Shown here one piece after another: positions 2,110 to 25,831 of a stretch of DNA of 27,612 nt. Every line of letters starts with the position of its first letter. Positions within the stretch are counted from its first letter, which is position 1. The stretch spans positions 1 to 27,612 of the IMG/VR virus record IMGVR_UViG_3300037234_000226; one strand, 5' to 3'. The position numbers and the translations under genes are program-made. The stretch comes from a virus. Under the pieces are notes generated by a model. That model was not told the origin of the DNA, made no database searches, and saw only the letters and a list, made by a program, of their open reading frames with translations.

Positions 2110-2555
2110 TGAACCGTATTCAAATCATGCCCCTTCCTGCAAGCAAGCTAAGAGAGTTTGTAGGAATGACTTATGGTTCTGAATTTGCAGGTGCCATGGA
2201 CTTACGTTCTCCGAACAGACAGTCCATGTATTGCATCCCTGGACAGACATACAACTTAGGGCTAGGTTTTGCTATAGCTATACCTAATGGTCTGTCAGGA
2301 TTGCTTATACCTCGTTCAGGACTAGGCACTAAACATCGTTTCAGTCTTGCCAACACAGTTGGCTTGATTGATTCAGATTACCGAGGTGAGCTTATGATTG
2401 TCTTTTCAGTAGAAAAGGAACTCATGATCAACCACGGTGATAGAATTGCGCAACTAGCAATCGTTCCAACCCCTCAATTTGAAATTGAGTTAGTAGACGA
2501 ACTTCCCATCACCTCTCGAGGTATGGGTGGCTTCGGTCATACTGGAATGCAATAG
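2109..2555 (+). CDS. dut: dUTP diphosphatase (dUTPase), trimeric type
   Basis: At 148 aa it has normal length for a homotrimeric dUTPase, which hydrolyses dUTP to dUMP and pyrophosphate, keeping uracil out of new DNA and supplying dUMP for dTMP synthesis. All five family motifs are visible: motif 1 Ala-Gly-Ala-Met-Asp-Leu-Arg-Ser; motif 2 Pro-Arg-Ser-Gly-Leu-Gly; motif 3 Asn-Thr-Val-Gly-Leu-Ile-Asp-Ser-Asp-Tyr-Arg-Gly with the catalytic Asp; motif 4 Gly-Asp-Arg-Ile-Ala-Gln-Leu; and the C-terminal lid, motif 5, Arg-Gly-Met-Gly-Gly-Phe-Gly-His-Thr-Gly. It sits directly before the DNA polymerase, consistent with nucleotide supply for replication. A hairpin with a T tail follows at once. Confidence 0.96.
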   Translation: MNRIQIMPLPASKLREFVGMTYGSEFAGAMDLRSPNRQSMYCIPGQTYNLGLGFAIAIPNGLSGLLIPRSGLGTKHRFSLANTVGLIDSDYRGELMIVFSVEKELMINHGDRIAQLAIVPTPQFEIELVDELPITSRGMGGFGHTGMQ

Positions 2556-2563
2556 TTACCACG

Positions 2564-2586
2564 AAGGGTCTTATATAGACCCTTTT
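2564..2586 (+). terminator. Hairpin with T tail between dUTPase and DNA polymerase
   Basis: A perfect 8-bp stem, AAGGGTCT (2564-2571) and AGACCCTT (2577-2584), with loop TATAT and the run TTTT at 2583-2586. This is the shape of a factor-independent terminator or attenuator. It lies nine bases after the dut stop and just before the likely polymerase start, so it could lower polymerase expression relative to dUTPase. The related stem at 5460-5481 is the terminator of this block. Confidence 0.6.
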
Positions 2587-2592
2587 AACGTC

Positions 2593-5208
2593 ATGGAGAC
2601 CCCACTATTTATGCACCACATAAATCATTCAACCACAGGAACCTTTGATACAGCAATACTAATCAAGGAATCACGATTAGATAAAGAGGCTATTGAGAGA
2701 TACTACATTAACCCACTGGCTCAAAAGGGTATGGATGTATCTAGCATAGTGTCATTCTCACTGGATTATCAAGGAAAGAAACAATCAGTTAAGAACCAGA
2801 AAGAGTATCTAGACATACTAATGCCAGAGATCGATAAGCTAGGTATCAAGGATATTCTTATAGCAGATGGGGATTACTTCAAGACCCTCTGTAAAGTCAC
2901 TAAAGCAGTACCTCATTACGGTTATGTAATGCCATGTAAGTATCCTGGATATGAACACATGAATGTAGTTCTGGTTCCAAACTACGGGATGATATGGCAT
3001 ATGCCTTCACTAGAGGAAAAGGTAGATATTGCCTTGAATGCTCTAGATGACCATAAGAGAGGTAGCTATGTACCGATGGGAACCAATATCATTCACAGTG
3101 AGTATTACCCTAAGTCTCTCACGTCCATAGAACGAGCTCTAAGGGACTTACACAAGCATCCAATGCTAACGTGTGACATAGAGACCTTTCACCTTAAGCA
3201 TCACTCCTCAGGGCTTGGAACCATAGGCTTTGCATGGAGTAAGCACGAAGGTCTAGCTTTCAAGGTTGACTACAAATCTACCCCTCAAAGGGATGGTGGT
3301 TATCAGGAATATAACCAAAAAGTTAGGGAATTATTGAAAATATTTTTTAGGGAGTATAAAGGAAAGATACTCTGGCACAATGCATCCTTTGACATATACA
3401 TATTGGTATATCAATTATGGATGGATGGGCTACTAGACCAAGAAGGACTGCTTGAAGGTCTACACATAATGACTAAGAACTTTGGTGATACCAAGATCAT
3501 TACTTACCTAGCTACCAATTCAACAGAGGGGAACCATCTCTCATTGAAGGAGCAAGCTCATAAGTTTGCCGGTAACTATGCAGAGTCAGAGATCAATGAC
3601 ATCACCAAGATTCCACAGGACAGACTACTCAGGTACAACCTAGTAGATTGCCTCTCAACATGGTACGTATATGAAAAGCACTACGGTACGATGGTTGATG
3701 ACGTTCAACTTGATTTATATAATGATCTGTTTATACCCTCAATTAAGACTATTGTTCAGATGCAGCTCACTGGAATGTGTCTGGATATGGGTAAGGTTCT
3801 AGAAGCAGAGTCACACCTGTCAAAGATACATCGAGGTCACTACGATAGTATGCAACAGTCGGACCTAATCATTGAGTTCACTGAGCATCTAAGACAATCT
3901 CGAATGGATAAGGACAACCTCTCTTTAAAGACTAAACAGAGAACCATAGATGAAGTAGCTCATATCGTCTTTAACCCTAACTCTAATAACCAGCTACAAG
4001 AACTCTTATATGAGGTGATGGACTTACCAATCCTAGACATGACTAAGAACAAGAAGCCTGCTACTGGTAACAAGACACTGAGTAAACTACTGAACCATTG
4101 TACTGATGAGCTACATGTAGAGTTCCTAGAGCATCTCATTGGATTCATTAAAGTAGACAAGGTTCTAACTGCATTCATACCAAGGTTCAAGGAAGCACCT
4201 CTGGCTGAAGATGGATACCACTACCTGTTTGGTAACTTCAATCTAGGTGGTACGGTATCAGGCAGACTATCTAGTAGTAACCCTAACCTACAACAAATCC
4301 CTTCTGGTTCCACTTATGCCAAGATCATCAAAGCATGTTTCGTAGCTCCAAGAGGATGGATATTTGTAGGTGCTGATAGTGCATCTCTTGAGGACAGGAT
4401 TGATGCCTTACAAACTAAAGATCCTAACAAGCTAAAGGTTTATACCGATGGCTATGATGGTCACTGCCTCCGGGCATTCAACTACTTCCCGGATAGACTA
4501 CCGGGGATAGTAGATACAGTGGAATCTATTAACTCTATTGCTAAGCTCTTCAAGGATGTGAGACAAGACAGTAAAGCTCCAACATTTGCACTTACGTATG
4601 AAGGAACATACAACACCCTCATGAGCAACTGTGGCTTCACGTACAACGTTGCTACACAGATTGAGACTAACTACTTAGAGATGTACAAACACTCGGTACA
4701 GTGGAAAGCAGACCGTATGGAAGAGTGTGCTAAGAATGGATATGCAACAGTAGCTTTTGGCTTACGAGTCAGAACTCCTATGATGGCTAAGTCCATTCTT
4801 GGAACCAGTGTTACTCCATATGCTGTAGCTGCTGAGGGAAGAACAGTTGGTAATGCCTATGGACAGTCATGGGGACTACTCAACTCCAGAGCAGGGAATG
4901 AAGTGATGGGGAAAGTGTGGACTTCGTCCCACGCTCTGAACATAAGACCATGTGCACAAATCCATGATGCTCTTTACTTTCTGGTTCTAGATGATGACAT
5001 GGAGACTCTCACATATCTAAACGGAATAGTAGGTGAAGCTATGGCTTGGCAGGACCACCCTGCAATTCGACATGAACAAGTACACCTATCAGGTGAGTTA
5101 GACGTATTCTATCCTTCATGGAAAGATGACTTCACTCTACCTAATGGTGCGTCCAAGGAAGAGATCATTCAGATCTCTATAGACGAAGCAATTAAAAGGA
5201 AGAAGTAA
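2593..5208 (+). CDS. DNA polymerase, family A, with 3'-5' exonuclease (N4 gp39-like)
   Basis: This is the replicative polymerase (871 aa from the ATG at 2593). About 190 N-terminal residues match nothing I recognise. The proofreading exonuclease follows: Asp195-x-Glu197, Asn-x-x-x-Asp267 and Tyr348-x3-Asp352. The polymerase motifs are A (Asp595, with steric-gate Glu600), B (Arg657-x3-Lys661-x7-Tyr669, with Phe665 at the Pol I Phe762 position) and C (Gln-Ile-His791-Asp792). The 5'-nuclease domain of bacterial Pol I is absent, as in T7 and N4 enzymes. The start is uncertain: an in-frame GTG at 2527 would put the 2564-2586 hairpin inside the gene, and the ATG at 2593 has no clear ribosome site, while an ATG at 2611 has GGAG upstream. 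The stop overlaps the next ATG (TAATG). Confidence 0.95.
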   Translation: METPLFMHHINHSTTGTFDTAILIKESRLDKEAIERYYINPLAQKGMDVSSIVSFSLDYQGKKQSVKNQKEYLDILMPEIDKLGIKDILIADGDYFKTLCKVTKAVPHYGYVMPCKYPGYEHMNVVLVPNYGMIWHMPSLEEKVDIALNALDDHKRGSYVPMGTNIIHSEYYPKSLTSIERALRDLHKHPMLTCDIETFHLKHHSSGLGTIGFAWSKHEGLAFKVDYKSTPQRDGGYQEYNQKVRELLKIFFREYKGKILWHNASFDIYILVYQLWMDGLLDQEGLLEGLHIMTKNFGDTKIITYLATNSTEGNHLSLKEQAHKFAGNYAESEINDITKIPQDRLLRYNLVDCLSTWYVYEKHYGTMVDDVQLDLYNDLFIPSIKTIVQMQLTGMCLDMGKVLEAESHLSKIHRGHYDSMQQSDLIIEFTEHLRQSRMDKDNLSLKTKQRTIDEVAHIVFNPNSNNQLQELLYEVMDLPILDMTKNKKPATGNKTLSKLLNHCTDELHVEFLEHLIGFIKVDKVLTAFIPRFKEAPLAEDGYHYLFGNFNLGGTVSGRLSSSNPNLQQIPSGSTYAKIIKACFVAPRGWIFVGADSASLEDRIDALQTKDPNKLKVYTDGYDGHCLRAFNYFPDRLPGIVDTVESINSIAKLFKDVRQDSKAPTFALTYEGTYNTLMSNCGFTYNVATQIETNYLEMYKHSVQWKADRMEECAKNGYATVAFGLRVRTPMMAKSILGTSVTPYAVAAEGRTVGNAYGQSWGLLNSRAGNEVMGKVWTSSHALNIRPCAQIHDALYFLVLDDDMETLTYLNGIVGEAMAWQDHPAIRHEQVHLSGELDVFYPSWKDDFTLPNGASKEEIIQISIDEAIKRKK

Positions 5209-5447: not shown

Positions 5448-5459
5448 AGAGTAAATAAA

Positions 5460-5481
5460 AAGGGGTCTATTAAGACCCCTT
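5460..5481. terminator. Bidirectional intrinsic terminator between convergent genes
   Basis: A perfect 9-bp inverted repeat, AAGGGGTCT (5460-5468) and AGACCCCTT (5473-5481), with loop ATTA. Read leftward, the stem is followed by a T-rich tract (the complement of GTAAATAAAA), a good terminator for the DUF1501/DUF1800 cassette. Read rightward, the tail is TCATTATCTATT, weaker but plausible. It sits in a 46-bp gap between two converging genes, exactly where such an element is expected. Confidence 0.85.
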
Positions 5482-5493
5482 CATTATCTATTC

Positions 5494-7323
5494 TTATAGA
5501 CCAAACGAGAAGTGCTGTTTACATTGGAAACAACGAGCAACATCAGGATCACCATTAGACTCAAAGACAGAGTTAGTCTGACCACAAGTTGGACATGTGA
5601 AATCAGCAAGCAATACACCTTCAGGAGCACTGTTTAAGTTAGAAGCCATCGCTTCAACCATAGCAGCTTTGAATGCAGTAGCACTTGCAAGAGCAGCAAC
5701 CAGTACAGCCTTCTCACTAACCAAGAGAGCTTTATCAGCTTCAAGGGTAGTAATGTAAGCAGCTTGAGCAGCACCTGTTGCTAGAGCTGAGGCTAACGCA
5801 GTCTCAACAATAACCAACTCACCTTCAAGACGAGCGATCTCTAAGAGTAGAGCTTCGTTATCACCTTCGTTACGATCACGAACTTCAAACACAATCTCAA
5901 CAGTACGGGTATTAGACTCACCATCTGTAGCAGTACCTAAATATGTACCAGCTAGGGATTCAACTACAGGGTATACGTCAATCTTAGGACCGACCTCTGC
6001 AATTGCTTCGCCATCTTTAAGCCATGAGTAAGTTTCACCGATAACAGCGTCGAAACCAAATGTGTGTGCTTGACCAATATACGATACGATTTTCATAATA
6101 CTTTCCTCTTTATTAATAGGTTCTTCAGGAACTTCTGGTTCTTCTGGCTCACTAATGAAAGCTGAGTCCATTGGTTCAATATCACCAATGACACCAATTG
6201 TACTCTCAAATGCGCCTTCAGGCTCTAGTGTACACGTTAATGCTTCTGCCATAGTGAGACCCATCCAACGGAAACACTCAGTATTGATCTGATCCCATGA
6301 AGTAGTAGGGTCTATCCGGCCAGTACTTGTGAAACCAGGATCACCATAAACAAATGGTTTACCATGAATCTGATTACCTTTGACAGCTCCACCCATTATT
6401 AGGTAGTGACCACCCCAACCATGGTCTGTACCATCAGAACCATTAGAACGTACAGTACGTCCAAACTCTGATTGCCAGATGAATATAGCATCATCCCATA
6501 GATCATTAGCTTTAAGCTCTTCGATGAACCAAGAGATCTGATTATCCATGATTGTATGGTTCCGCTCGAATGCTCCTACTTGGTCTCGATGAGTATCCCA
6601 CTGCGTACCTTTGGTACGAGATAGGTAAATACACTGACCTTTGTCATGACCGAACACTTCTGCATTACGCATAGCTTCAATAGCAAGCTTCATGTCGCTA
6701 TCCATATCTTCATGGATATAGTCAATAGGAGGTAGAACCAGTTCACCTACATTATATAACATGTCTTGAATCTTGGACTTGTTAGCAATGATAGTGTCTT
6801 CTTTCCAGTTGATGCCATCCAATACACGATGCTCATCAAAGTCTGTAGAGTGTGCATGAATCTCACCAGTGTAAGGACTGTCATAACCAATATACAGTAC
6901 ATTCATTAGTGAAGGGTAAGCAGACATATTAGCTTTAACAGGCATGTTCAGCCAATCAGGGTAAGCTACTTTATGCCACTTGGAATGAATACCAATAGAG
7001 TGAGCATCTTCACCACCTAGACCATTTGTCTGTGAATGCTGATTAGAGTGCGAACCACGGAAAGGAATAGACTGTGAGTTATTCTCATCGAACATACGAC
7101 CTACGTTCCATAGAACTGCTGCATCACCATCATTGATAGCCTTAGCGATCTTAGGTAATAGTGGGTGACAACCATGGTTCTCATCTACGATGTCAATCAA
7201 GTCATCGAACGCAGGCATGATTGGACCACGTACTGTAGTCAGGTATTCATATTGACGTTTATCATAGAACATGCCGATTGAATCACAACCACCAGCATTT
7301 ACTAGATGCATTATTGCTTTCAT
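5494..7323 (-). CDS. DUF1501 family protein fused to an Ig-like domain, coiled coil and zinc ribbon
   Basis: Residues 1 to about 385 match the DUF1501 family (alkaline-phosphatase/sulfatase-like fold, function unproven). Visible signatures are Gly-Gly-Cys-Asp-Ser near the start, Ser-His-Ser-Asn-Gln-His (91-96), Trp-Asp-Thr-His-Arg-Asp-Gln (242-248), Ser-Glu-Phe-Gly-Arg-Thr-Val (285-291) and Gly-Thr-Asp-His-Gly (298-302). Bacterial members usually have a Tat signal; this one does not. After a Glu/Pro linker (392-406) comes an Ig-like domain (410 to about 480, with Trp-Leu-Lys-Asp-Gly and Gly-Thr-Tyr), an Ala-rich coiled coil (about 485-570) and a C-terminal zinc ribbon (Cys577, Cys580, Cys598, Cys601). 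A strong internal ribosome site precedes Met410. The start has GGAGG, overlapping the end of DUF1800, so the pair is coupled. The Ig and coil suggest virion or surface attachment; that is inference. Confidence 0.88.
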   Translation of the reverse strand: MKAIMHLVNAGGCDSIGMFYDKRQYEYLTTVRGPIMPAFDDLIDIVDENHGCHPLLPKIAKAINDGDAAVLWNVGRMFDENNSQSIPFRGSHSNQHSQTNGLGGEDAHSIGIHSKWHKVAYPDWLNMPVKANMSAYPSLMNVLYIGYDSPYTGEIHAHSTDFDEHRVLDGINWKEDTIIANKSKIQDMLYNVGELVLPPIDYIHEDMDSDMKLAIEAMRNAEVFGHDKGQCIYLSRTKGTQWDTHRDQVGAFERNHTIMDNQISWFIEELKANDLWDDAIFIWQSEFGRTVRSNGSDGTDHGWGGHYLIMGGAVKGNQIHGKPFVYGDPGFTSTGRIDPTTSWDQINTECFRWMGLTMAEALTCTLEPEGAFESTIGVIGDIEPMDSAFISEPEEPEVPEEPINKEESIMKIVSYIGQAHTFGFDAVIGETYSWLKDGEAIAEVGPKIDVYPVVESLAGTYLGTATDGESNTRTVEIVFEVRDRNEGDNEALLLEIARLEGELVIVETALASALATGAAQAAYITTLEADKALLVSEKAVLVAALASATAFKAAMVEAMASNLNSAPEGVLLADFTCPTCGQTNSVFESNGDPDVARCFQCKQHFSFGL

Positions 7324-7325
7324 AA

Positions 7326-9092
7326 TTATACCTCCGGTACGTATGTAATTGCTTTAACATCGATGTCATTACAACGAGCAACAAAGAACTTCTCTAAGCT
7401 ACCACTAGTAGCTCTAGAACTAGAACCACCCATTGCTGTGAAGTAAGGGTCATGAGAACCATCACGTCCTTCAGGATCAGGGATAGGCCACTTAGCTTTA
7501 GACCTTGGTTCAACTCCTGCCATCATGTCATATTGGAACCAGTCCCAATAATGCTTTTCGAATTCAACACGTCTACCACTGGTAACTGTGCCATCAACAT
7601 TCCAGAAGTGTTGGTAGTTACTACAACCACGATTCACTACATCACCAATTAAGAAGTCATGGATATGTAGGAAAGAGTTACGGTCTACCTTCTGGTCATG
7701 AGCACTACCACAGCGAACATAAGCTGATTCACTTAAACCATCATAATTTGACATGTCTAAGTTACTTGATAATGATTCCCATTCAAGAATACCAAATACA
7801 TTAGGTGCAGATAGAATGCCACCAACGTTAGCATTAGCCCAATTACCCCAACCAGGATCAAAGTCGATAGGTTTACCAGAAGCATAGCCATCTTTGAATA
7901 CTTCAAGATGTTGGTACAAATCACCGATACGACTGACATTATCGTTATCAGTATAATCTTCGATTACATGTGACCACTCATCACCAATACCATTGTCAGT
8001 ATCTTCTTGAGTCTTGAGACGAACACGTCCAGTAGTGTCTGCTGCAGCTTGAGCATCGATATCGTAGCAAGATGTACCACGAGTCATTGCACAGAACAGT
8101 TCAACCGGTGTACGTAAGCGAGTGTAGTTACACTTCTTAGTAGGGTTAAGTACTTCAGAATGATTGAAGATAAACCGAACCAGTTCAATGATATTGCCAT
8201 CGTTAGCTTTGAAGAACTGTACACAATCAACCATAAGGTCTCTAGATGGTGTTTCAGTAACAAGACGATTAAGCATATGAGCACAGAAGCGGACTGCTGT
8301 TTCATGTTGAGCTGCTAAGAAGTTAGTAAGATCATGAATCTCTTCTTTGATAGTTTCCTTTGGTGAGTAGGTTTGACCCATTACAATCTTGTCACCCATA
8401 TCATGGTGTTCCATGTACTCAACCATAGGTACTTCATAACGACCATCATCACCAGTAGCGTTACTTTGATGACTAGTTAAACCAGTAAAGATACGAGCAG
8501 CTTCCATGATATCAGTGTCATTATATAACTCGATACCTGTAGGTGTTCCATCTTCTAATAGTTCTTCCATACCTAGTGAGAATAGCTGCATAACTTCACG
8601 AGCGTAATCTTCATTAGGTGCTTGACCAGTAATAGCTTCAGAGGAGTTAGCTCCAAATGCTAGATATACACCAGTAACTCCATGAATGGATACTGCGTAT
8701 AACAAGTCACTAAAGGTAGGGTTCTCACTACCTAGTACATCTTGGATTTGTTGAACGAACGATGTTAGTGCAAAGCCACGAGTAGTTAGACGTGGATGCA
8801 TCTGGCTCACAACAATAAACTCTGTGATTGCTTGAGTGATACGTAAATGTAATTGGCTCTCATCAAAGAATACTTGAGTGTACCAAGCGTTATGGAAATG
8901 GTTACGACCATTACCTGTACTGTTACGATTATCCCATAGCTCTTGGGTACGGTTAGGACGAAACTTCTGGTCCAACTGTTCATCTACAAATGCAGCGAAA
9001 CCAATCTCTTTAGCTCTATCGAACTCCAGACGATCAGTACGGTTACCAAAAGTAGTTAAGTTTATTAATCGAAGTAGATTTCTATCTTCCAT
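7326..9092 (-). CDS. DUF1800 family protein
   Basis: A 588-aa protein with family hallmarks: Leu-Leu-Tyr-Ala-Val-Ser-Ile-His, then Asn-Glu-Asp-Tyr-Ala-Arg-Glu-Val-Met-Gln-Leu-Phe-Ser-Leu-Gly near residues 157-171, a segment corresponding to Ala-Ala-Arg-Ile-Phe-Thr-Gly, and a later helix with Phe-Cys-Ala-His-Met-Leu-Asn-Arg-Leu. DUF1800 genes are typically paired with DUF1501 in bacteria such as planctomycetes and proteobacteria; the biochemical role is unknown. No signal peptide is seen. The start at 9092 is chosen because TTAGGAG precedes this ATG and because an upstream extension to 9239 would run into the divergent gene at 9193 and has no ribosome site. Its stop lies two bases before the DUF1501 ATG. 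The residues after about 430 have no motif I recognise. Confidence 0.88.
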   Translation of the reverse strand: MEDRNLLRLINLTTFGNRTDRLEFDRAKEIGFAAFVDEQLDQKFRPNRTQELWDNRNSTGNGRNHFHNAWYTQVFFDESQLHLRITQAITEFIVVSQMHPRLTTRGFALTSFVQQIQDVLGSENPTFSDLLYAVSIHGVTGVYLAFGANSSEAITGQAPNEDYAREVMQLFSLGMEELLEDGTPTGIELYNDTDIMEAARIFTGLTSHQSNATGDDGRYEVPMVEYMEHHDMGDKIVMGQTYSPKETIKEEIHDLTNFLAAQHETAVRFCAHMLNRLVTETPSRDLMVDCVQFFKANDGNIIELVRFIFNHSEVLNPTKKCNYTRLRTPVELFCAMTRGTSCYDIDAQAAADTTGRVRLKTQEDTDNGIGDEWSHVIEDYTDNDNVSRIGDLYQHLEVFKDGYASGKPIDFDPGWGNWANANVGGILSAPNVFGILEWESLSSNLDMSNYDGLSESAYVRCGSAHDQKVDRNSFLHIHDFLIGDVVNRGCSNYQHFWNVDGTVTSGRRVEFEKHYWDWFQYDMMAGVEPRSKAKWPIPDPEGRDGSHDPYFTAMGGSSSRATSGSLEKFFVARCNDIDVKAITYVPEV

Positions 9093-9192
9093 AAATACTC
9101 CTAATTGAGTCTGTGAATACCTGCTTCGCAGGTTACGATGGGACCCTAGAATCCCGAGACGGAGTATACACAAATCATAAGGACTATGTGCA
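9093..9192. promoter_or_regulatory. Divergent intergenic region with a GAA-loop hairpin (9119-9133)
   Basis: This 100-bp gap separates the leftward DUF1800 gene from the next rightward genes, so it should hold at least one promoter. It contains a 6-bp stem ACCTGC/GCAGGT with loop TTC on the plus strand (9119-9133), hence C(GAA)G on the minus strand, the exceptionally stable DNA mini-hairpin loop. Setting the loop centre (9126) at -11, as for N4 virion polymerase, puts +1 at 9137, a G, as expected. For leftward transcription I see only a lone TATACT on the minus strand (9163-9168) without a convincing -35. Confidence 0.35.
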
Positions 9193-9477
9193 ATGGGAAA
9201 CAATAAGTACGACAGAACCATCGTAGGTAAGTATGGCACTGGTTCATGTGTAGTAGATGTCTACTGTGTATTGGATGCATTCCCTACCTTGAATCCTAGA
9301 CTACAACACCTAACTAAGAAGTCCTTATGTGCAGGACTTCGAGGTCACAAAAGTGAAGAGCAGGACTTGATTGATATCAGGGATTCAGCAGAATCAGCTC
9401 TTCATGCTTATTACGCAAAGGAAGATGCAAATGGAAACAATGGCAATGTGGTACTGGAACCAAGCTCAACAAGCTAA
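9193..9477 (+). CDS. Small conserved phage protein with a QH...KK...LCAGLRGHK signature
   Basis: This 94-aa protein contains Val-Val-Asp-Val-Tyr-Cys-Val-Leu-Asp-Ala-Phe, then Gln-His-Leu-Thr-Lys-Lys-Ser-Leu-Cys-Ala-Gly-Leu-Arg-Gly-His-Lys and a C-terminal helix with Asp-Leu-Ile-Asp-Ile. From memory this resembles a small protein found in many tailed phages with the pattern QHAxKKLLCAGxRG; its function is unknown to me. AAGGA lies upstream of the ATG. It is the first gene of the second rightward block and its 3' end overlaps the start of the next gene in another frame. Confidence 0.7.
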   Translation: MGNNKYDRTIVGKYGTGSCVVDVYCVLDAFPTLNPRLQHLTKKSLCAGLRGHKSEEQDLIDIRDSAESALHAYYAKEDANGNNGNVVLEPSSTS

Positions 9478-9821: not shown

Positions 9822-10066
9822 GTGAACAACTAGAATATCGAATTAGAGTAATGGAAGAATACTTTAATGAACCACACTATATATGTCGTATCCACAGGGC
9901 TGTTGATAACGTATATACCATTGACATGGCAATGCCTGATGTCTGCAAACCACTTAAATGGAAAGCAAGAGCATCAGCTAGGCATCACATGCCCAAGGTA
10001 CTGTTACAATACCCTTCTGCTAAAATAGAAAAGGTATATAACGATGGCGAAGATAACAAACAATAG
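9818..10066 (+). CDS. Small unknown protein
   Basis: An 82-aa protein starting at the ATGA overlap with the preceding gene, with a poor ribosome site of its own, so it is probably coupled. It is rich in charged residues, with His and Cys scattered (Tyr-Ile-Cys-Arg-Ile-His; Val-Cys-Lys-Pro-Leu-Lys-Trp-Lys). The predicted beta-alpha content gives no recognisable motif. Its last 23 bases overlap the start of the nuclease gene in another frame, so both are likely made from one message. Function unknown. Confidence 0.65.
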   Translation: MSEQLEYRIRVMEEYFNEPHYICRIHRAVDNVYTIDMAMPDVCKPLKWKARASARHHMPKVLLQYPSAKIEKVYNDGEDNKQ

Positions 10067-11036
10067 TGGCATCTCTCTACCAATGGCTATCTGGTTGGCT
10101 CATGATGAATACGACCATGACCCTCGTGAGAACGTCATAAGCGTCACTTCTCTAATGAGGTCAACCAAAGAGCTGTGTCTTACCAAACGTGTCCCAGAGG
10201 GCACCTGCTTGCCTGACATAGCGGATAGGTTAGCTTCAAGACTTGGAACCAGTATACATAATAGTATTGAGCATTCGATAGTGAACAACGTAGCTGAGAG
10301 TCTCCTAGCTCTTGGCTACCCAAAGAGAGCTGTTGAACGTGTACGAGTTAACCCCACTGAACCAGATGAAGATTGTATTGATATCTATCTGGAGAAGAGG
10401 AGCGAGAAGACAGTAGGTAACTTCATTGTCTCTGGTCAATTCGATATCGTCTTTGATGGTATGGTTCAAGACATCAAGTCTACAGGTACTTATACCTACG
10501 AGAATCATACCAACGATAATGCTTACATATTACAGCTTAGTCTGTACCGATGGCTTAACCCTCAGATCATTACTAACGACCATGGAGCTATCCAGTTCCT
10601 ATTCAAGGATTGGTCTAAGAACAAGGCTATGGGTAAGTCAGGTACATACCCTAAGTTACCAGTACTGGAATACAAGATACCTCTCAGACCTATTGGGCAA
10701 ATGGAACAGTACGTGAACCAGAAGCTAATGGATATTGAGGTCTGTATGGATAGACCTGAGCATGAGATGCCTGCCTGTACTGCTGAAGAGAGGTGGGCTA
10801 CTAAACCTACCATCTACAAGTACTATGCTAAGTCAGACTCTGTTAAAGCAAGTAAAGTCTTTAAGGGAGGAACCAGTGCTCAGAATAAGATTGAAGCTGA
10901 ACGGCACTACTTCACGAAAGGTAAAGGACAGATTAGAGAGTTCAAGGATGAGTCAACCAAATGCAACTACTGCTCAGCAGCAAGCATATGTATCCAAAGA
11001 CAAGGCTATGTCTTTGATGGATCACTCAAGGAATAA
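10044..11036 (+). CDS. PD-(D/E)XK exonuclease with Fe-S cluster cysteines (Cas4/AddB-like)
   Basis: The 330-aa protein shows the RecB-family nuclease core: His72, Asp134 in Gly-Gln-Phe-Asp, Asp143-Ile-Lys145 (D-x-K) and Gln164 in the following Leu-Gln-x-x-Leu-Tyr helix. Four cysteines match the Cas4/AddB iron-sulfur pattern: Cys45 before the core, and Cys307, Cys310 and Cys316 (C-x2-C-x5-C) at the C-terminus. Such enzymes degrade DNA from ends and often work in phage recombination or host DNA turnover. A similar gene lies at this position in N4 (gp42 region), by memory. AAAAGG is just upstream of the ATG. It overlaps the previous gene by 23 nt. The following 116-aa gene resembles the tail of DUF2800 nucleases. 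Confidence 0.85.
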   Translation: MAKITNNSGISLPMAIWLAHDEYDHDPRENVISVTSLMRSTKELCLTKRVPEGTCLPDIADRLASRLGTSIHNSIEHSIVNNVAESLLALGYPKRAVERVRVNPTEPDEDCIDIYLEKRSEKTVGNFIVSGQFDIVFDGMVQDIKSTGTYTYENHTNDNAYILQLSLYRWLNPQIITNDHGAIQFLFKDWSKNKAMGKSGTYPKLPVLEYKIPLRPIGQMEQYVNQKLMDIEVCMDRPEHEMPACTAEERWATKPTIYKYYAKSDSVKASKVFKGGTSAQNKIEAERHYFTKGKGQIREFKDESTKCNYCSAASICIQRQGYVFDGSLKE

Positions 11037-11678: not shown

Positions 11679-11711
11679 CCCTTCACAGAAAGGGATGCAG
11701 GCTTCGCCTGC
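11679..11711. promoter_or_regulatory. Tandem hairpins before the primase-like gene; second is a GAA-loop mini-hairpin
   Basis: Hairpin one spans 11679-11694 (CCCTT/AAGGG). Hairpin two spans 11697-11711 with a perfect 6-bp stem GCAGGC/GCCTGC and loop TTC, so the minus strand carries C(GAA)G. Read on the minus strand it resembles N4 virion polymerase promoters; with the loop centre (11704) as -11, +1 would be 11715, a C, one base from a G. No T run follows, so ordinary termination is unlikely. It may also be an RNA-processing or stabilising element. Confidence 0.35.
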
Positions 11712-11739: not shown

Positions 11740-13899
11740 ATGAAGTTAAAGGAGTTAGACACGGTCAAATACCATCCTACGTCTGAAAAGATGATGAATG
11801 TGTTAACAACCAAAACCCAAAACCATGAATCAGATTTGTATTTCCGTGTACTAATCGCTAACTTCATGGCTCAAATGTCATCTAGCATGCGCGTAGAGAT
11901 GATTACCCCTCATCGAGGTGTATTGCCATTAAATGTATTCGTTTGTGCCTTAGCGGAGTCTGGAGCAGGTAAGGGACATAGTCTCAATATCTGTGAAGGA
12001 ATCATCAAAGGTTTCAAAGATACATTCATGAAGCATACAGCTCCCGAAATAGCTGAGCAGAATCTATTAGCTGATGCTCAAACAAAAGCTATCATTAGAG
12101 CTACTGATGAAGTGACTGAACTAGAGAAGATTCAAAAGGAATATGACTCTCTGGGAATAATGCCATTCAGTTTCGATAGTGGTACTGGACCTGCATATAA
12201 ACAAGTTCGAACCAAGATGCAAATGGCAGGTATTGGTTCACTTAATATGGTCTGTGATGAAATAGGTACTAACCTATTAAACAATGCTGAACTGTTTGCT
12301 GTGAATTTAGAGGCATATGATATTGGTCTTATTAAGCAGAAGATCATTAAGAATACTGCTGACAATAAACGTAGTGAAGAGAGGGATGATCCTGTCCCAA
12401 GTAACATGCTCATCTTTGGTACACCATCTAAGTTGTTTAATGGTGGTAAAGAGGAAGTGGAGTTTTATTCACTTTTAGAGACTGGTTATGCAAGACGACT
12501 ATTCTTTGGATTAGGGAGGAAGACTGCTGTAGGTAGCTTAACTGCTAAAGAGATGTTTGATGCTCTAACATCAACATCTGTGGATACAGTAGTAGATGAC
12601 CTATCTAATCACTTTGTTAATCTAGCAGACCCAATTAACTACAATGCCAAAATCCTAATGGATGAACCAGTGGCTCTTATCAATATTCAATATCAACTTG
12701 ATTGTGAAGCATTGGCAAGTGAGTTATCGGTATATGAATCTGTTAAGAAAGCTGAGATACAACATCGTTACTTCAAAGCTATGAAGTTAGCAGGTATCTA
12801 TGCATTCATGGATAGCTCCAATACAGTAACTGAAGATCATATGTATGCTGCTATAAAGCTCACAGAGGACTCAGGTAAAGCGTTCGTAGACATCCTATCT
12901 CGTGATAAGAACTATGTCCGTTTAGCTAAGTACATCGCTGAGGTGAAGCAGGAAGTCACATATGCTGACTTGACTGAAGATCTCCAATTCTTTACTGGTT
13001 CAATCTCTATGAAGAATGATCTCCTACAGTTAGCAACTGCATGGGGTATCAAGAACAACATTATTATTAAGAAGACCTTTGCTGATGGCATAGACTTCTT
13101 CACTGGGGAAACACTGCAAGAGACTGATTTATCTGGTATAATGGTCTCTTACTCCAAGCATGAAGCATATGATTATGTTAGTGCTAAACTTGATTTCAAG
13201 AACCTACACAAGCTTACGCAGGTTCAAGGATATCATTGGTGTAACCACAGTTTCTTAGACAATCATCGTTTAGAAGATAAAGCTATTCCTGAGTTTAACT
13301 CGGTAGTTATTGATGTTGATGGTGGAGTCTCTATGACTACTGCCAAGGATCTTCTCAAAGACTACAATGCTTTCTACTACACGACGAAACGATCTACAGA
13401 TACTGATAATAGATTCCGAATAGTTCTACCTATTAAGTATCATTTGAAACTTACCAAGGAAGATCATAAGGAGTTCATGAGTAATATCTTTAGTTGGCTA
13501 CCATTTGAAGTTGATACTGGTACTGGACAGAGATGTAAGAAGTGGCTTACCAACACAGGTACATACGTACTTAATGAAGGGGAGTCTCTAGACCCTATGC
13601 AGTTTATACCTAAGACTGCTAAGAACGAAGAACGGAAGAAGGCTAATAAGAACCTATCCTCTATGGATAATACTGAACGCTGGTTTGCAAAGGAAGTGTC
13701 ACAGGAAGGCAACAGAAATAACATTATGTGCAAGTATGCTTTAATGCTTCTAGATAGTGGTATGGATGTTACAGAGGTCGAGGAACGGACCAAACATTTC
13801 AATAACAAGATACCAAATCCACTCAAGAAGTCCGAGTTGGAACAAACTGTATTCAAGACGCTTTACGCTAGAGCGAAACATGACAAGGACAATGAATGA
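11740..13899 (+). CDS. P-loop (DUF3987-like) ATPase fused to a primase-polymerase-like domain (N4 gp43-like)
   Basis: The 719-aa protein has a Walker A loop, Glu-Ser-Gly-Ala-Gly-Lys78-Gly, and the general layout of DUF3987/phage helicase-primase proteins in its first 400 residues. Near residue 520 an archaeo-eukaryotic-primase-like module begins: Val-Val-Ile-Asp525-Val-Asp527-Gly-Gly (the metal-binding DxD), then Asn-Arg-Phe-Arg-Ile-Val-Leu-Pro and Thr-Gly-Thr-Gly-Gln-Arg. I infer that it unwinds and primes DNA for the polymerase; the usual second-motif His is not obvious, so catalysis is unproven. AAGGAG lies just before the ATG. The last bases overlap the next start (ATGA). N4 gp43 has a similar size and place, by memory. 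Confidence 0.75.
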   Translation: MKLKELDTVKYHPTSEKMMNVLTTKTQNHESDLYFRVLIANFMAQMSSSMRVEMITPHRGVLPLNVFVCALAESGAGKGHSLNICEGIIKGFKDTFMKHTAPEIAEQNLLADAQTKAIIRATDEVTELEKIQKEYDSLGIMPFSFDSGTGPAYKQVRTKMQMAGIGSLNMVCDEIGTNLLNNAELFAVNLEAYDIGLIKQKIIKNTADNKRSEERDDPVPSNMLIFGTPSKLFNGGKEEVEFYSLLETGYARRLFFGLGRKTAVGSLTAKEMFDALTSTSVDTVVDDLSNHFVNLADPINYNAKILMDEPVALINIQYQLDCEALASELSVYESVKKAEIQHRYFKAMKLAGIYAFMDSSNTVTEDHMYAAIKLTEDSGKAFVDILSRDKNYVRLAKYIAEVKQEVTYADLTEDLQFFTGSISMKNDLLQLATAWGIKNNIIIKKTFADGIDFFTGETLQETDLSGIMVSYSKHEAYDYVSAKLDFKNLHKLTQVQGYHWCNHSFLDNHRLEDKAIPEFNSVVIDVDGGVSMTTAKDLLKDYNAFYYTTKRSTDTDNRFRIVLPIKYHLKLTKEDHKEFMSNIFSWLPFEVDTGTGQRCKKWLTNTGTYVLNEGESLDPMQFIPKTAKNEERKKANKNLSSMDNTERWFAKEVSQEGNRNNIMCKYALMLLDSGMDVTEVEERTKHFNNKIPNPLKKSELEQTVFKTLYARAKHDKDNE

Positions 13900-14639
13900 C
13901 TGAACCAGTAAAGAAAGCAATCAATGACCATTTGATCTTAATGTGTGGCAAGTCAGCTACCGGTAAATCAATGGCTCTACGTAACATCAAGAAACCTGAA
14001 GGTGTTATGTATTTGAATTGTGAAGCAGGTAAGCGATTACCTTTTAGAAGCAAGTTCAAATCAATGACAGTTACAGATCCCATGCAAGTGTACACAGCGT
14101 TCCTACAAGCTGAACAGATGCCTGAGATACATACCATTGTAATCGACAGTCTTACATATCTAATGGATATGTTTGAGAATGTGTATGTAACCAATTCACC
14201 TAATGGTCTTAAAGCCTGGGGTGAGTATGCTTCATTCATGAAGAATCTCATGAGTCAGTATGTAGCATCATCTACTAAAAATGTAATCTTCACAGCTCAT
14301 ACAATGGATATATTGAATGAAGGTGAAGGTGTTATGGAGACCTTGGTTAAAGTTAAAGGTTCCCTAATGAATAATGGTATTGAGTCTTGGTTCTCTAATA
14401 TCATCTCTACTAAGAAAGTGTCTCTCAAGAAGCTTGAAGAGTATGGCAGTGACTTATTAGATGTCTCTGATGAAGAGAAGGACTTGGGATTCAAGTACGT
14501 ATTCCAAACCCGTCTAACCAAGGAATCAGTAAACGAAAGGATTCGTGGTCCACTAGGTATGTGGGACAAGAAGGAAACATATATTGATAATGATATTCAA
14601 CATGCGATTAGTCGTCTGACAGAATATTACAAAGATTAA
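13896..14639 (+). CDS. RecA-like P-loop ATPase (AAA_24/Sak4-type, N4 gp44-like)
   Basis: A 247-aa protein with Walker A Gly18-Lys-Ser-Ala-Thr-Gly-Lys-Ser25 and Walker B Ile81-Val-Ile-Asp84-Ser. The Asp-Ser after the hydrophobic strand and the overall size fit the Sak4/AAA_24 group of RecA-like phage ATPases that load or assist single-strand annealing and recombination. It starts at an ATGA overlap with the primase-like gene and is followed by SSB, the usual partner of such recombinases. No N-terminal or C-terminal extension is seen. I infer a role in recombination-dependent replication. Confidence 0.85.
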   Translation: MTEPVKKAINDHLILMCGKSATGKSMALRNIKKPEGVMYLNCEAGKRLPFRSKFKSMTVTDPMQVYTAFLQAEQMPEIHTIVIDSLTYLMDMFENVYVTNSPNGLKAWGEYASFMKNLMSQYVASSTKNVIFTAHTMDILNEGEGVMETLVKVKGSLMNNGIESWFSNIISTKKVSLKKLEEYGSDLLDVSDEEKDLGFKYVFQTRLTKESVNERIRGPLGMWDKKETYIDNDIQHAISRLTEYYKD

Positions 14640-14706
14640 AGTTAGTAGCCAATAGGCTACGATGGTCTATTGGATAAACCATAATATAATTTAAAGGAAT
14701 GAACCA
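14640..14706 (+). promoter_or_regulatory. Tandem hairpins and A/T-rich leader upstream of SSB
   Basis: Two hairpins: 14645-14660 (perfect GTAGCC/GGCTAC, loop AATA) and 14662-14682 (ATGGT/ACCAT with an inner TAT/ATA). A TATAAT follows at 14685-14690, but I find no matching -35, and then AAGGA before the ATG. One of four rightward gaps here that carry two or more hairpins before a strongly translated gene. It could end or process the upstream message or raise SSB expression. Confidence 0.4.
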
Positions 14707-15432
14707 ATGTTAGATAAATTTAAAGTAGAAGCAGGCGTAGAAGTAGAAGCAGACCGTGATGTACTTGGCGGTGGTGGTGTTCTAGAGACGAATGTATACC
14801 CTCTAACAATTGAAGTTGCATACATCGAAGAAACCGCTAAAGGTGCTACGATGTTCAAAATGAAATTAACTACAGAAGATGGTCGTAAAGTCGATTACTC
14901 TAACTGTATCGTATCTGGTAAAGCTAAGGGTCAGAAGTCTTACTATATTTGTAAGCGTACTGGTGCTAAGAAAGTAATGCCGGGTATGGCTGATGTAAAC
15001 GTTCTTTGTGAAATCATCAATGGTAAGCAGTTCTACCAACAAGATGGTGACATGAAGATGATCAAGCTATATGACTTCGAGAAGAAGCAAGATGTAGCTA
15101 TTGAGAAACTAGTACTTACTGAATTCAAAGGTACTAAAGTTCAAGCTGCTATCTACAAGCAGATCGAAGACAAGATGGGTAAAGACGACAATGGTAACTA
15201 CACTATCCCTAACGGTACTCGTGAGACCAATGAGTTCAAGAAATGGTTCTCTGAAGATGGTCGTACTATCACTGAATTGAATGACTCTAAACCTTCTAAG
15301 TTCTTAGAAGAATGGAGAAACACCAATGAAGGTAAAGTTAAGAACAATGCTAAAAATGTAGCAGCTGCTCCTAAAGCGACAGCCGGTGCTCCAGCATTAG
15401 GTCAAGCAACTCCTACTCTAAGCTTTGACTAG
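14707..15432 (+). CDS. Single-stranded DNA-binding protein, N4SSB-like
   Basis: The 241-aa protein has the size, charge pattern and operon position of N4 SSB (about 265 aa): after a P-loop ATPase, before RusA. It has a globular Lys/Glu-rich body, an Ala/Pro-rich linker (about 217-234) and a short end, Thr-Leu-Ser-Phe-Asp, like the acidic tips by which SSBs recruit partners. In N4, SSB also activates host RNA polymerase for late transcription, which would turn on the leftward block here. Sequence identity to N4SSB cannot be checked by eye, so the call rests on context and architecture. AAGGA is placed well upstream of the ATG. Confidence 0.75.
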   Translation: MLDKFKVEAGVEVEADRDVLGGGGVLETNVYPLTIEVAYIEETAKGATMFKMKLTTEDGRKVDYSNCIVSGKAKGQKSYYICKRTGAKKVMPGMADVNVLCEIINGKQFYQQDGDMKMIKLYDFEKKQDVAIEKLVLTEFKGTKVQAAIYKQIEDKMGKDDNGNYTIPNGTRETNEFKKWFSEDGRTITELNDSKPSKFLEEWRNTNEGKVKNNAKNVAAAPKATAGAPALGQATPTLSFD

Positions 15433-15817
15433 TCACAAGCTCATATCTCCCCTGTACGTAGAAAAGAACAAGAAGGGTGTTAAGTGGTATCTGAATCTTA
15501 ATGGATACCGTAACACCCACTACCAGACCTTAAACAATGTGAAGATTAAGTACAAAGATCTAATGGAACCACAGATCTCTTTGCTTCCTGTTATGGATAG
15601 GGTCTCGGTAGAGTTCCATATATACGCTAGGGATAGACGTAAGTTCGACATAGACAATGTGTCGTCCATACATGCTAAATTCGCTCTTGATGCCTTGACG
15701 GAGCTAGGTAAGCTGAAGGACGACAATTACCTATATATACCAGAAACACATACTTACTTTGAGGGTATCGACAAAGATAACCCTAGAGTTGAAATCATTA
15801 TAAAGGAACTAAATTGA
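15425..15817 (+). CDS. RusA-like Holliday junction resolvase
   Basis: The 130-aa protein carries the RusA signature: Lys-Phe-Asp75-Ile-Asp77-Asn78, then Ala-Leu-Asp89-Ala-Leu and Lys-Asp99-Asp100. These acidic residues bind the catalytic magnesium in RusA, which cuts four-way junctions and thereby tidies replication or recombination intermediates before packaging. No in-frame ATG precedes the conserved region; the likely start is TTG at 15425, overlapping the SSB stop by 8 nt, consistent with translational coupling. RusA proteins are about 120 aa, so the length is normal. The stop overlaps the next gene. Confidence 0.88.
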   Translation: MTSHKLISPLYVEKNKKGVKWYLNLNGYRNTHYQTLNNVKIKYKDLMEPQISLLPVMDRVSVEFHIYARDRRKFDIDNVSSIHAKFALDALTELGKLKDDNYLYIPETHTYFEGIDKDNPRVEIIIKELN

Positions 15818-16119
15818 AGATTTTACTAAGCCAATCAGAAATCAAACTAGCTATTGAAGCAGCAATCAAAGCTAAGATCAACATCAGTAACTCACAAGAA
15901 CTAGTCATTGATATCATTGTATCTCGTAACCCTACATCTCACAGTGCTGAGATTGATATCGTAGATCGTGAACTACCAAAAGAAGTACCTCATCCAGTAG
16001 CTGTTAACCGTACTCAATCTAGTGCTCCATTTGAAACTGAACATGCTGCCTTAACAAATGAACCAGAAGCTGTTGAGCTACCGAAGCGTTCTATGGGTGA
16101 CATTCTTAACTTAGGATAA
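15814..16119 (+). CDS. Unknown 101-aa protein (TTG start)
   Basis: Starts at TTG (15814) overlapping the RusA stop, with a strong TAAAGGA ribosome site 3 to 9 bases upstream. It has a helical first third (Leu-Ser-Gln-Ser-Glu-Ile-Lys-Leu-Ala-Ile-Glu-Ala-Ala-Ile), a beta-like middle (Leu-Val-Ile-Asp-Ile-Ile-Val) and a disordered, Pro/Glu-rich end. No catalytic motif is visible. It probably takes part in replication or transcription because of its neighbours, but no family is recognised. Confidence 0.7.
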   Translation: MKILLSQSEIKLAIEAAIKAKINISNSQELVIDIIVSRNPTSHSAEIDIVDRELPKEVPHPVAVNRTQSSAPFETEHAALTNEPEAVELPKRSMGDILNLG

Positions 16120-16122
16120 TGG

Positions 16123-16251
16123 ATGATTGCATTAGGTGTTCTAGTTATGATCTTGTTCTTCGTTGGAGCTTACTGGTTCCATAGAGCCTGCAGTGGTTTA
16201 TCCAAAGCAGGCAAGAGAGCAGATGACATTATAAATAAGAAGAGGGGGTAA
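16123..16251 (+). CDS. 42-aa small membrane protein at the end of the rightward operon
   Basis: ATG at 16123 with TTAGGA upstream. The N-terminal 18 residues (Met-Ile-Ala-Leu-Gly-Val-Leu-Val-Met-Ile-Leu-Phe-Phe-Val) form one membrane span, followed by a Lys/Arg-rich tail, suggesting a type with a cytoplasmic C-terminus. It is the last rightward gene, and its stop is inside the terminator stem. Role unknown; small hydrophobic phage proteins can affect the host membrane. Confidence 0.6.
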   Translation: MIALGVLVMILFFVGAYWFHRACSGLSKAGKRADDIINKKRG

Positions 16252-16260
16252 TCCCCTCTT
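16240..16260. terminator. Bidirectional intrinsic terminator between the convergent rightward and leftward blocks
   Basis: The stem is AAGAGGGG (16240-16247) paired with CCCCTCTT (16253-16260), loop GTAAT. Leftward, the stem is followed by TCTTATTTAT-like T-rich sequence, giving a good terminator for the virion polymerase message. Rightward the tail is TTCATTATA. It separates the ends of two opposing transcripts with only 12 bp between coding regions. Confidence 0.85.
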
Positions 16261-16263
16261 TCA

Positions 16264-19200
16264 TTATAGTGCTTTTACATATAAAGAATTACTTAGCATC
16301 TCCAGAGGTCCAGGTGGGAGGTATGCACGATTCAACATATTGTCTACGGATAGACTAGAGTCATACACGGTAGGAATACTTCCCCCGAACATATTGTTTA
16401 GGAACAATAAGGATAACACCTTTCTAGGGTTCTCCTTGAAGTTCTTAAGCAATGTCTTCTGAATACGAAAGAAATACTTGGTATACCAAAGTAAACCCAT
16501 GTCATTACCATACTGAGTAACTGCATGAGTAGGCATATCATAGTTAATGAACACATCCATCGCATTACCAATAGCATCATTATGGCTCATCTTGTTTTCA
16601 CTTCTAGTAGTGTAGTGCTTGTACAAAGCATACCTAGCAGTGAAGTCAGACAACTGAGCAGCTTCAGTCATGAACTTATACATCTTAGTATCATGGCTCA
16701 TATATGCAGTCTTGATACCATTCTGTACCATTCCAGGAACCTTGGAACCGTACTTATCTAATAACTTTTGAATCCCCTTCCCTTTATGGGTACGGCGATC
16801 TTCGGTCAGTGCCACATCTTCGATGATGGACTGCATCATCCCATCTGATATCAGAGGGGTAACGATATTAGTTTGGATCGAAAATTCAAGATGTGCAATT
16901 CTATCTTCGCTCCATCTCTGTCCCTGCTTAGGTATTCCTGCATCCAACAATGCTTGTAACTCAAACAGTTCTTGGGTCTCCTCTCTATGTCTTCTCGCCT
17001 CTGTGTAAGCCTCCTGTTGGTCTCTTATGATGTTCTCCATAGGAACGCCTTCGGTTATCAACTGAGTGCTGTTAGAGAGCGCATTGAACACTGTCAGAGT
17101 ACCTGACTTGATTACCACAAAGTCCTTCACCTCACGTACATACTCTTTCCACATGTTACCTGCTTTACGAATCTTATTAGCAGCAGTGTCTCCCAGAGCA
17201 TACTCAGCGAAATGAACCAGTGATTGCTTAACCACTGATCTTTCATGGTTCTCTTTCTTAAAGATATCAGCCGCAGACAACTTACGATGACCGAACAAGA
17301 TTGGAACCAGATCTCTTCGAACTTGCATAGATTGCTTACCCCAGACTTTACGCATATGTCTACGTGCAGAATCAGGCATCATCTTATACATCTCTAAGAG
17401 TTTAGGGTCTGTACTTGTTGGACCGATAGTTACATATCCATCTGTACCATCTGCCATGTCTTCAAGGAACTGTTCTCTCATAGCATCAATCAACTGTTCA
17501 TTGACCTTCTTCGAGTTAACCTTATCTACTGAGTAAGCTGCAGCTTCTGCCATGGTATCGGCAAAGTCATTGTTCTTCTCAAGAGTGTCATCCTTGAATG
17601 CTTCAGTAGTCATATACCTGTAACCAGTAATAACTCCTCTTGAATTGAAGAGAGGAACCATGTTTGCTGAAGTGTCTTTAGCAGGGTTATATGTACCCTT
17701 ACCTAATGCACTAATTCCAGGTCTCTTCTGGTCAATCAATGATTGGATTAAAGAGTTAGATTGTAGCTTCAATGAGACTGTACTCTCTAGACTATGTAAC
17801 ATCTGTAAAGTATCTGTACCCTTACTAGTAGGGTTAGTTAGGGATATCAATCCTGCAGCATAGTCAGTAAGACCACCATTAGGGTTAATATATATGTAAA
17901 CTTTCTCCTCAGTAGTATCATGCTTATCTCTAATAACACGATCACCTCGAACATACCCTAGTCTTAATAGCTCAGCTCCCTTAGCTTCCGTCTCTATCTT
18001 CACATCGATATCAGGGTTAGTCAGCTCAGCAGTGTATCCCTTGATGATGTTGTATTCTGAACCATCAAACAATTCACTCTTGTCATTCTTCTTCTGTGCT
18101 CTATGCATCTGGAGAACTAAGAACATACCTTCTTTATTAGCTTCCTCCTTTAACAACTCAGCGATAGCATTCTTATCAGTATTACTTGTATGACTCAATG
18201 CAGACAGAGTAGCCATTAGGTCTACTTGGTTCTCAAGCATCAATGTAGATGCATTAGGTTTCAACCTTGAACCAAACATATTCACTATCTGATGAGCATT
18301 AGTTAACTGATGTTTACTAGCTCTACCTGTAGACATAAAATGTCCTAAGCTATCAGCTTGGTTCGTTAACCACACACCGTGTTTGTCCTGACGTAATACT
18401 TTATGCAATGCATTGATACGTTTGGTCAGCTCCTGGGGATTAGATAGTAACTCTGTTATCTGCTCAATAGTAAACCCATGATCTAACAGACTTGATAGGT
18501 CAGTCTTCAAAGCAGCTTTAGTAATACTAGTAGATTCATTAGTAGTAAGCTTTCTTTGGAAGTGATCTAGCAATGTCTTACGTACCTTACCCTCTATGTC
18601 CTTACGTGCCATATCAATAGCAACTCGTTTAGCTCTAGACAGGTCATGGAATCGAGCAGTCTTAATTGTTCTACCCATCATCTCAGTCATAAGCGAACCA
18701 AGGAATCCTTGCTGTGTACTATCCTCAGAACGTACCCAAGCTTTAACTCTCGAGAGCTCACCAATGAACAGTTCCACAAAGTCACTTTGGTCACGTAGCT
18801 TAATAATGTTTTGAGCAGCACCAGTTACTGAACCAAGGATTGTCTTACCTCCTATTCTCAACATCTCATTATCAGCAAGCTTACCTAGTGTTGCAGTAGC
18901 AGCAGCGATAGGAGCACCAATGACTGTACCTAAACCAGATATAGCATTGTCCATACCTCTATATAAAACAGACTTCTTCTCTGCTTCAATACCAGATATC
19001 TCACTAACTATCTTACGTAGCTGAGCATCAGGTCTACCCTCATGACTAACAAACCTAAGACCAATCAAGTCCATCACATAGTTAACAAAGTTACGTAGGT
19101 ACTCAAATACATTGTTACCTGCATCTACTGTTCTCTCTGCTTTAAGAGTAGGGATGTTCTGCATAGCTTGAACCAGACGTTCATTAGTTAAACCGAATGC

Positions 19201-25773: not shown

Positions 25774-25799
25774 GGTAGGTTCCTCTAAATTGTAGGAAA

Positions 25800-25816
25800 G
25801 GGACCTAAACGGTCCC
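25800..25816 (-). terminator. Short hairpin upstream of the virion polymerase gene, possible attenuator
   Basis: The stem is GGGACC (25800-25805) and GGTCCC (25811-25816), loop TAAAC. Transcribed leftward it is followed by TTTCCTACAATTT, a weak T tract. It lies in the 58-bp gap after the preceding late gene and before the giant gene, and could reduce read-through or stabilise the message end. The ribosome site of the giant gene is just downstream. Confidence 0.4.
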
Positions 25817-25831
25817 AATCTATTAACTATA

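Follow-up and report, generated by a model that had tools for sequence, protein, structure and literature searches.

The window analysed here, the whole of IMG/VR record IMGVR_UViG_3300037234_000226 (27,612 bases), is probably a 27.6 kb genome fragment and reads as an N4-like (schitovirus-type) phage. Rightward genes for a dUTPase, DNA polymerase A, an exonuclease, a primase, a Sak4-like annealing protein, an SSB and RusA are followed by a leftward ORF of 3184 aa. This Schitoviridae layout, with a giant leftward putative virion RNA polymerase (vRNAP) ORF opposite a rightward replication block, is syntenic with loci L005-L007, and the gene order is that of Vibrio phage D456, Escherichia phage Pollock and Klebsiella phage KpCHEMY26. 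Since the primase is 60% identical to that of Vibrio phage D456 (50% for both Pollock and KpCHEMY26), the host likely belongs to the Vibrionaceae. Two leftward genes, encoding DUF1800 and DUF1501 proteins, sit in the gap between the polymerase and exonuclease genes. The features are:

2527-5208, + strand: DNA polymerase A (profile matches), neighbouring block to the left of the pair
5459-5482, listed on both strands: terminator-like hairpin closing the pair on the left (shuffle z -5.1 and -4.4)
5494-7323, - strand: DUF1501 gene, 609 aa (PF07394, E=8.9e-25; Shine-Dalgarno (SD) sequence GGAGGT)
5494-6096, - strand: C-terminal 200 residues of DUF1501, with a beta-rich Ig-like stretch (by eye), a coiled coil and zinc-ribbon-like CxxC pairs (low model confidence)
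6229-7323, - strand: putative catalytic core of DUF1501, residues 1-365, with D14, H92, D243, H245, E286, R289, D300 and H301 (conservation among 55 homologues)
7326-9092, - strand: DUF1800 gene, 588 aa from ATG (PF08811, E=3e-47; SD AGGAG 5 nt before the ATG)
9119-9133, + strand: hairpin ACCTGC-TTC-GCAGGT to the right of the pair, fitting N4 vRNAP promoter contacts for rightward transcription
9163-9192, - strand: weak sigma70-like promoter candidate TGCACA-18-TATACT upstream of DUF1800
10044-11036, + strand: exonuclease (phrog_2139, E=2.2e-105), neighbouring block to the right of the pair
16264-25818, - strand: 3184-aa ORF, presumed vRNAP, assigned by position and size rather than by profile

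Both family assignments made in a preliminary description of this DNA were borne out by Pfam matches far above the cut-offs (162.2 bits against 26.1 for DUF1800; 88.1 bits against 27 for DUF1501, with the best stretch at residues 240-322). PHROGs held no family for either protein apart from a weak zinc-ribbon match, and NCBIfam and solved-structure sequence searches returned nothing significant. As described earlier, neither protein has a recognisable signal peptide. Only 2 nt separate the DUF1800 stop from the DUF1501 start, and the SD sequence of DUF1501 lies within the end of DUF1800, so the proposed translational coupling is plausible. The terminator noted in the preliminary description held up, the hairpin to the left of the pair being real. 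At the right, the leftward promoter is only the weak sigma70-like candidate; sigma70-like sites in the region are no more numerous than in shuffled sequence.

The 9119-9133 hairpin, read by eye, presents -11A, -10G, -9C, -8G and +1C on the template for rightward transcription, which are the contacts listed for N4 vRNAP promoters (PMC4496689). Its probable role is to resume transcription of the rightward operon past the insert; a leftward vRNAP-type promoter at this position was rejected, as the contacts fit rightward transcription only. Three hairpins with 6-bp stems and 3-nt loops (1659-1673, 9119-9133 and 11697-11711) stand directly before rightward genes, all with N4-vRNAP-promoter-like loop and stem bases and +1C only at the 9119 hairpin; the placement is unusual, N4 early promoters being reported from the early region. 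Also to the right of the pair, a 94-aa gene (9193-9477) matches phrog_2452 (235 positions) only over its C-terminal third and is either a short version of that family or a truncated gene.

In bacteria, DUF1800 and DUF1501 are common families that occur as a pair and have no known function. An alignment-based scan of GTDB gave at least 588 matching stretches, and in nearly all of the best 80 of these loci DUF1501 directly follows DUF1800. Simple motif counts over the same best 80 found a twin-arginine (Tat) motif in 70 of 78 DUF1501 proteins and a hydrophobic N-terminus in 47 of 75 DUF1800 proteins, in agreement with the earlier statement that the bacterial pair usually travels with export signals. 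Operons of Vibrio splendidus MOR1 (L043), a Vibrio maritimus plasmid (L009) and Photobacterium sanctipauli (L063) share with the window the families, their adjacency and order, and the acid/histidine set described below, but have a Tat signal on DUF1501 and often a hydrophobic DUF1800 N-terminus, both absent from the window pair; in L043, L063 and one pair of L009, the Tat signal is on DUF1501 only. The two Vibrio DUF1501 proteins tested end in a carbohydrate-binding F5/8C domain (one a weak match), whereas the window protein ends in an unrelated beta-rich, coiled-coil and CxxC tail. The Tat route exports folded proteins, and some partners that lack a signal are carried out with them (PMC10924467, PMC4273604), so it is plausible that the bacterial pair forms a complex in the cytoplasm. 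The few papers found to name DUF1800 or DUF1501 go no further than co-occurrence with chitin synthase, where the two lie in chitin-synthase islands (PMC5122149), Planctomycetes/Verrucomicrobia clusters, candidates linked to the T6SS and altered expression in an alga. On the V. maritimus plasmid, tatA adjoins a DUF1800-DUF1501 pair (13311-17259) with a Tat-like signal on DUF1501 only.

An AlphaFold2 model of the window DUF1501 (mec43dbabd830; mean pLDDT 68, much of the core at 80-98) was compared with the PDB using Foldseek, giving 84 matches at E<=0.001 to sulfatases, phosphonate monoester hydrolases and LtaS/LtaP, with probabilities up to 1.00 and E-values down to 8.5e-6 (sulfatases, LtaP). 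TM-scores were low, at 0.22-0.31 over the whole query, poorly modelled tail included. The protein is thus predicted to adopt an alkaline-phosphatase-superfamily fold, resembling S1 sulfatases, phosphonate monoester hydrolases and LtaS/LtaP in fold class and in the D/H metal-site pattern but differing in its identity of about 10%, the low TM-scores and the lack of a recognised nucleophile motif. The window protein has D243, H245, R289, D300 and H301, which are invariant among 55 DUF1501 homologues (55/55). D14 and the acid at position 286 come close to invariance, and no invariant Ser/Thr/Cys nucleophile was recognised, S91 being variable. The family pattern of D243, H245, F287, R289, D300, H301 and W303 is complete in the window protein, and viral DUF1501 proteins examined keep the acid/histidine set, with one exception at D14. 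In the tail, the model places helices at residues 489-564, and zinc-ribbon matches are weak. Only one of 17 internal ATGs, at codon 410, has an SD sequence. The C-terminal 200 residues start at this ATG and may be translated on their own as well.

For DUF1800, the model (m23541e7a05ca; mean pLDDT 70) has a helical core that is confident over residues 1-345, and no counterpart of this core was found in the PDB. Against the viral library, the single match was to an uncultured Caudovirales phage protein of the DUF1800 family, so one phage DUF1800 was already annotated. The window protein keeps the family columns R165, E166, Q169, L170 and G174 and differs at six columns invariant in 51 homologues (162, 280, 286, 373, 394 and 395, those from 373 on lying in a poorly aligned region); its role may therefore have shifted.

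Four converging profile scans found the pair on about 21 of 2.9 million IMG/VR viral contigs. Searches for the terminase large subunit gave a match on 14 of the 21 carriers, and wherever both genes are present they are adjacent and in the order DUF1800-DUF1501. Export signals are missing from these pairs, except from one on a 322-kb contig, and the Tat motif is absent from viral DUF1501 bar one chance-like occurrence. Most pairs lie in packaging or tail modules (L013, L014, L016, L018/L019, L021, L022, L024 and L025): between a collagen-like tail fibre and terminase-portal-capsid genes (L014), after terminase-portal-capsid-decoration genes (L016), between baseplate/tail genes and terminase (L018/L019), after virion and tail-fibre proteins (L022), after terminase (L024) and before portal (L025). 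L012 departs from this pattern: its pair is flanked by replication genes and ParB-like genes, a setting somewhat similar to that of the window pair. Two of the proteins carry matches to tail domains. The DUF1800 N-terminus of L018 matches Methylophilales phage tail fibres (4e-6) as well as phrog_677, the baseplate wedge/tail-fibre connector family (E=1.4e-5), and the DUF1501 C-terminus of L013 matches the tail protein phrog_5939 (E=1.8e-17). This placement, together with the fusions, is the strongest evidence for a role in the virion. Like the window pair, the pairs of uncultivated tailed phages (L013-L025 and L033; also UniProt A0A6J5M749, from an uncultured Caudovirales phage) are phage-borne, adjacent and signal-less, but they lie mostly in packaging/tail modules and 11 of them form a clade, whereas the window pair lies in a replication region and is not clearly in that clade. 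What is new here is this set of about 21 uncultivated viral carriers, with the pair mostly in packaging/tail modules and nearly always signal-less. The 322-kb contig (IMGVR_UViG_3300037882_003354; L026 and L029) bears one pair without signals and another whose export signals are of the bacterial type, and may be bacterial sequence with a provirus. For the terminase of L018 and L019, the search reports a match that runs across two TAG codons; the ORF used, of 539 aa, is complete in table 11, and the TAGs probably fall outside it.

For the carrier phages as a group, we find fairly strong grounds for reading the pair as a virion-borne complex of a hydrolase and its partner. Extrapolating from those carriers to the window phage, we infer, at a probability of about 0.5, that a Tat-exported metallohydrolase and its partner have been reused without signals as a late, virion-borne enzyme acting on the host surface. 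DUF1501 would be a metal-dependent hydrolase with sulfate- or phosphate-ester chemistry and DUF1800 its helical partner. The bacterial pair would fold in the cytoplasm and leave by the Tat route; in phages, with the signals lost, the folded complex would stay inside and be built into new particles, most often into the tail or fibre apparatus, where it could act on a polymer at the surface of the next host, by trimming or by binding it. The window pair would be transcribed leftward like virion genes and would have gained its own C-terminal module. Complex formation, late expression, incorporation into the virion and the substrate are all parts of this proposal.

In its favour, besides the Pfam and fold matches, the invariant residues, the Tat contrast with bacteria and the tail-module placement and fusions in other phages, the pair is on the same leftward strand as the presumed virion genes of the window; against it, the pair lies outside the structural module, between polymerase and exonuclease, as that of L012 also lies outside. 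The six changed columns of the window DUF1800, the very long branches of both proteins, the lack of a recognised invariant nucleophile and the low TM-scores count against it too. The earlier guess of a virion or surface enzyme was strengthened by the unrelated phages, with their pairs among tail and packaging genes and their tail-domain fusions, but not by the position and high divergence of the window pair itself. Tailspike and tail-fibre depolymerases and deacetylases are virion-borne enzymes that act on host surface polymers. The role proposed here would be alike, but the fold is different, the two subunits are separate and action on a polymer is only proposed. More broadly, and still more tentatively, the pair may represent an undescribed class of virion enzyme: a two-subunit DUF1800/DUF1501 complex of the alkaline-phosphatase superfamily, derived from a Tat-exported bacterial pair and used to modify the host surface by uncultivated tailed phages that are phylogenetically scattered, as well as by at least one schitovirus. 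Signal-less reuse in phages and tail fusions offer a handle on the function of both families, pointing to a complex that can fold in the cytoplasm and act outside the cell, and predict virion enzymes as well as a protein fold, the DUF1800 core, for which no PDB match was found.

It is possible, if unlikely, that the pair instead acts inside the infected cell and never enters the particle, either in counter-defence or as a cytoplasmic enzyme, akin to a phosphatase or sulfatase, whose target would be a nucleotide, a lipid or a signalling metabolite. Such a role would suit the missing export signals, the replication genes that adjoin the pair in both the window and L012, and the weakly matched zinc-ribbon-like CxxC tail, a type commoner in cytoplasmic proteins, but it sits poorly with the export of the bacterial homologues, the carbohydrate-binding domain of Vibrio DUF1501, and the packaging/tail location of most viral pairs, two of them with tail-domain fusions. 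A decidedly improbable variant keeps the pair in the particle without catalysis, with the DUF1501 fold serving as a decoration or fibre scaffold. Neighbouring decoration and fibre genes in other phages, the lack of a recognised invariant nucleophile and the invariant residues lost from the window DUF1800 all fit this idea, whereas retention of the superfamily acid/histidine set in the window and viral DUF1501 proteins examined (one D14 exception) argues against it.

The claim that the pair is inserted against the replication operon agrees with the gene content of relatives: the polymerase-exonuclease gap holds only rightward genes in D456, Pollock and KpCHEMY26, and in nearly all scanned IMG/VR loci that have both flanking genes. 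The preliminary description had asked whether the pair recurs in related phages, and none of those examined has it. Eighty IMG/VR loci that surround related primases were scanned with HMMs and none has the pair, megablast of the window against phages gave no match, and a scan of IMG/VR for close relatives with P0002 alone returned nothing. The pair is a rare, dispersed phage module with tail fusions rather than a recurrent schitovirus gene. When each of the two proteins was compared by tblastn with 50,697 deposited phage records, only MT837425.1 matched, and viral-type DUF1800 and DUF1501 queries found no further carrier. That record (L003), deposited as 'Bacteriophage sp.' from human faeces, is mis-filed bacterial DNA with pyruvate-kinase-like and response-regulator-like ORFs and an RR-type DUF1501, and was rejected as a phage carrier. 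The protein ZC03_052, from an N4-like Pseudomonas phage and reported to have a weak CDD match to DUF1501 (PMC5418858), was also set aside; it is 61 aa long, and no such phage was found with P0001.

Both window proteins are very divergent and have very long branches. In the DUF1800 tree, 11 viral sequences form one clade (SH-aLRT 99), while the window and L012 fall inside a Vibrionaceae group (99), the window on an end branch of 3.2 changes per column; the DUF1501 tree does not place the window. AU tests reject neither the window with the 11-virus clade (p=0.365) nor the window with L012 (p=0.377), and neither trees nor AU tests place it firmly, be it among the 11 viruses, beside L012 or within the Vibrionaceae group. 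The position of L012 apart from the 11-virus clade suggests at least two entries of the pair into phages. The window pair would have been acquired long ago, possibly from a Vibrionaceae-type source.

The inferred long residence is consistent with composition. The GC content of the pair (0.415) is the same as in the rest of the window, and, as the preliminary description had noted, the hexamer GAACCA/TGGTTC is about as dense in the pair (13 sites, 3.6/kb) as elsewhere in the window (about 3.9/kb), so the pair is a long-standing resident rather than the product of a chimera. Were it a passenger, a host gene pair gained by chance and since without importance, its very long branches and its uniqueness to this phage among the schitoviruses examined would be expected, but two full-length open frames with good ribosome sites, the kept catalytic set, and a base composition and hexamer usage that have come to match those of the phage make this very unlikely. 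An assembly chimera of phage and bacterial DNA, conceivable for bacterial families on a single contig, is hardly credible given the phage-like GC and hexamer density, the missing export signals and the intact flanking genes. The hexamer occurs 106 times in the window against 11.4 expected, an excess of about 9-fold; it is not the top hexamer in Pollock or KpCHEMY26, but it ranks first in the nearest Vibrio-phage relatives, with 94 sites against 12 expected in Vibrio phage D456 and 67 against 11 in L157, and is a clade-specific word.
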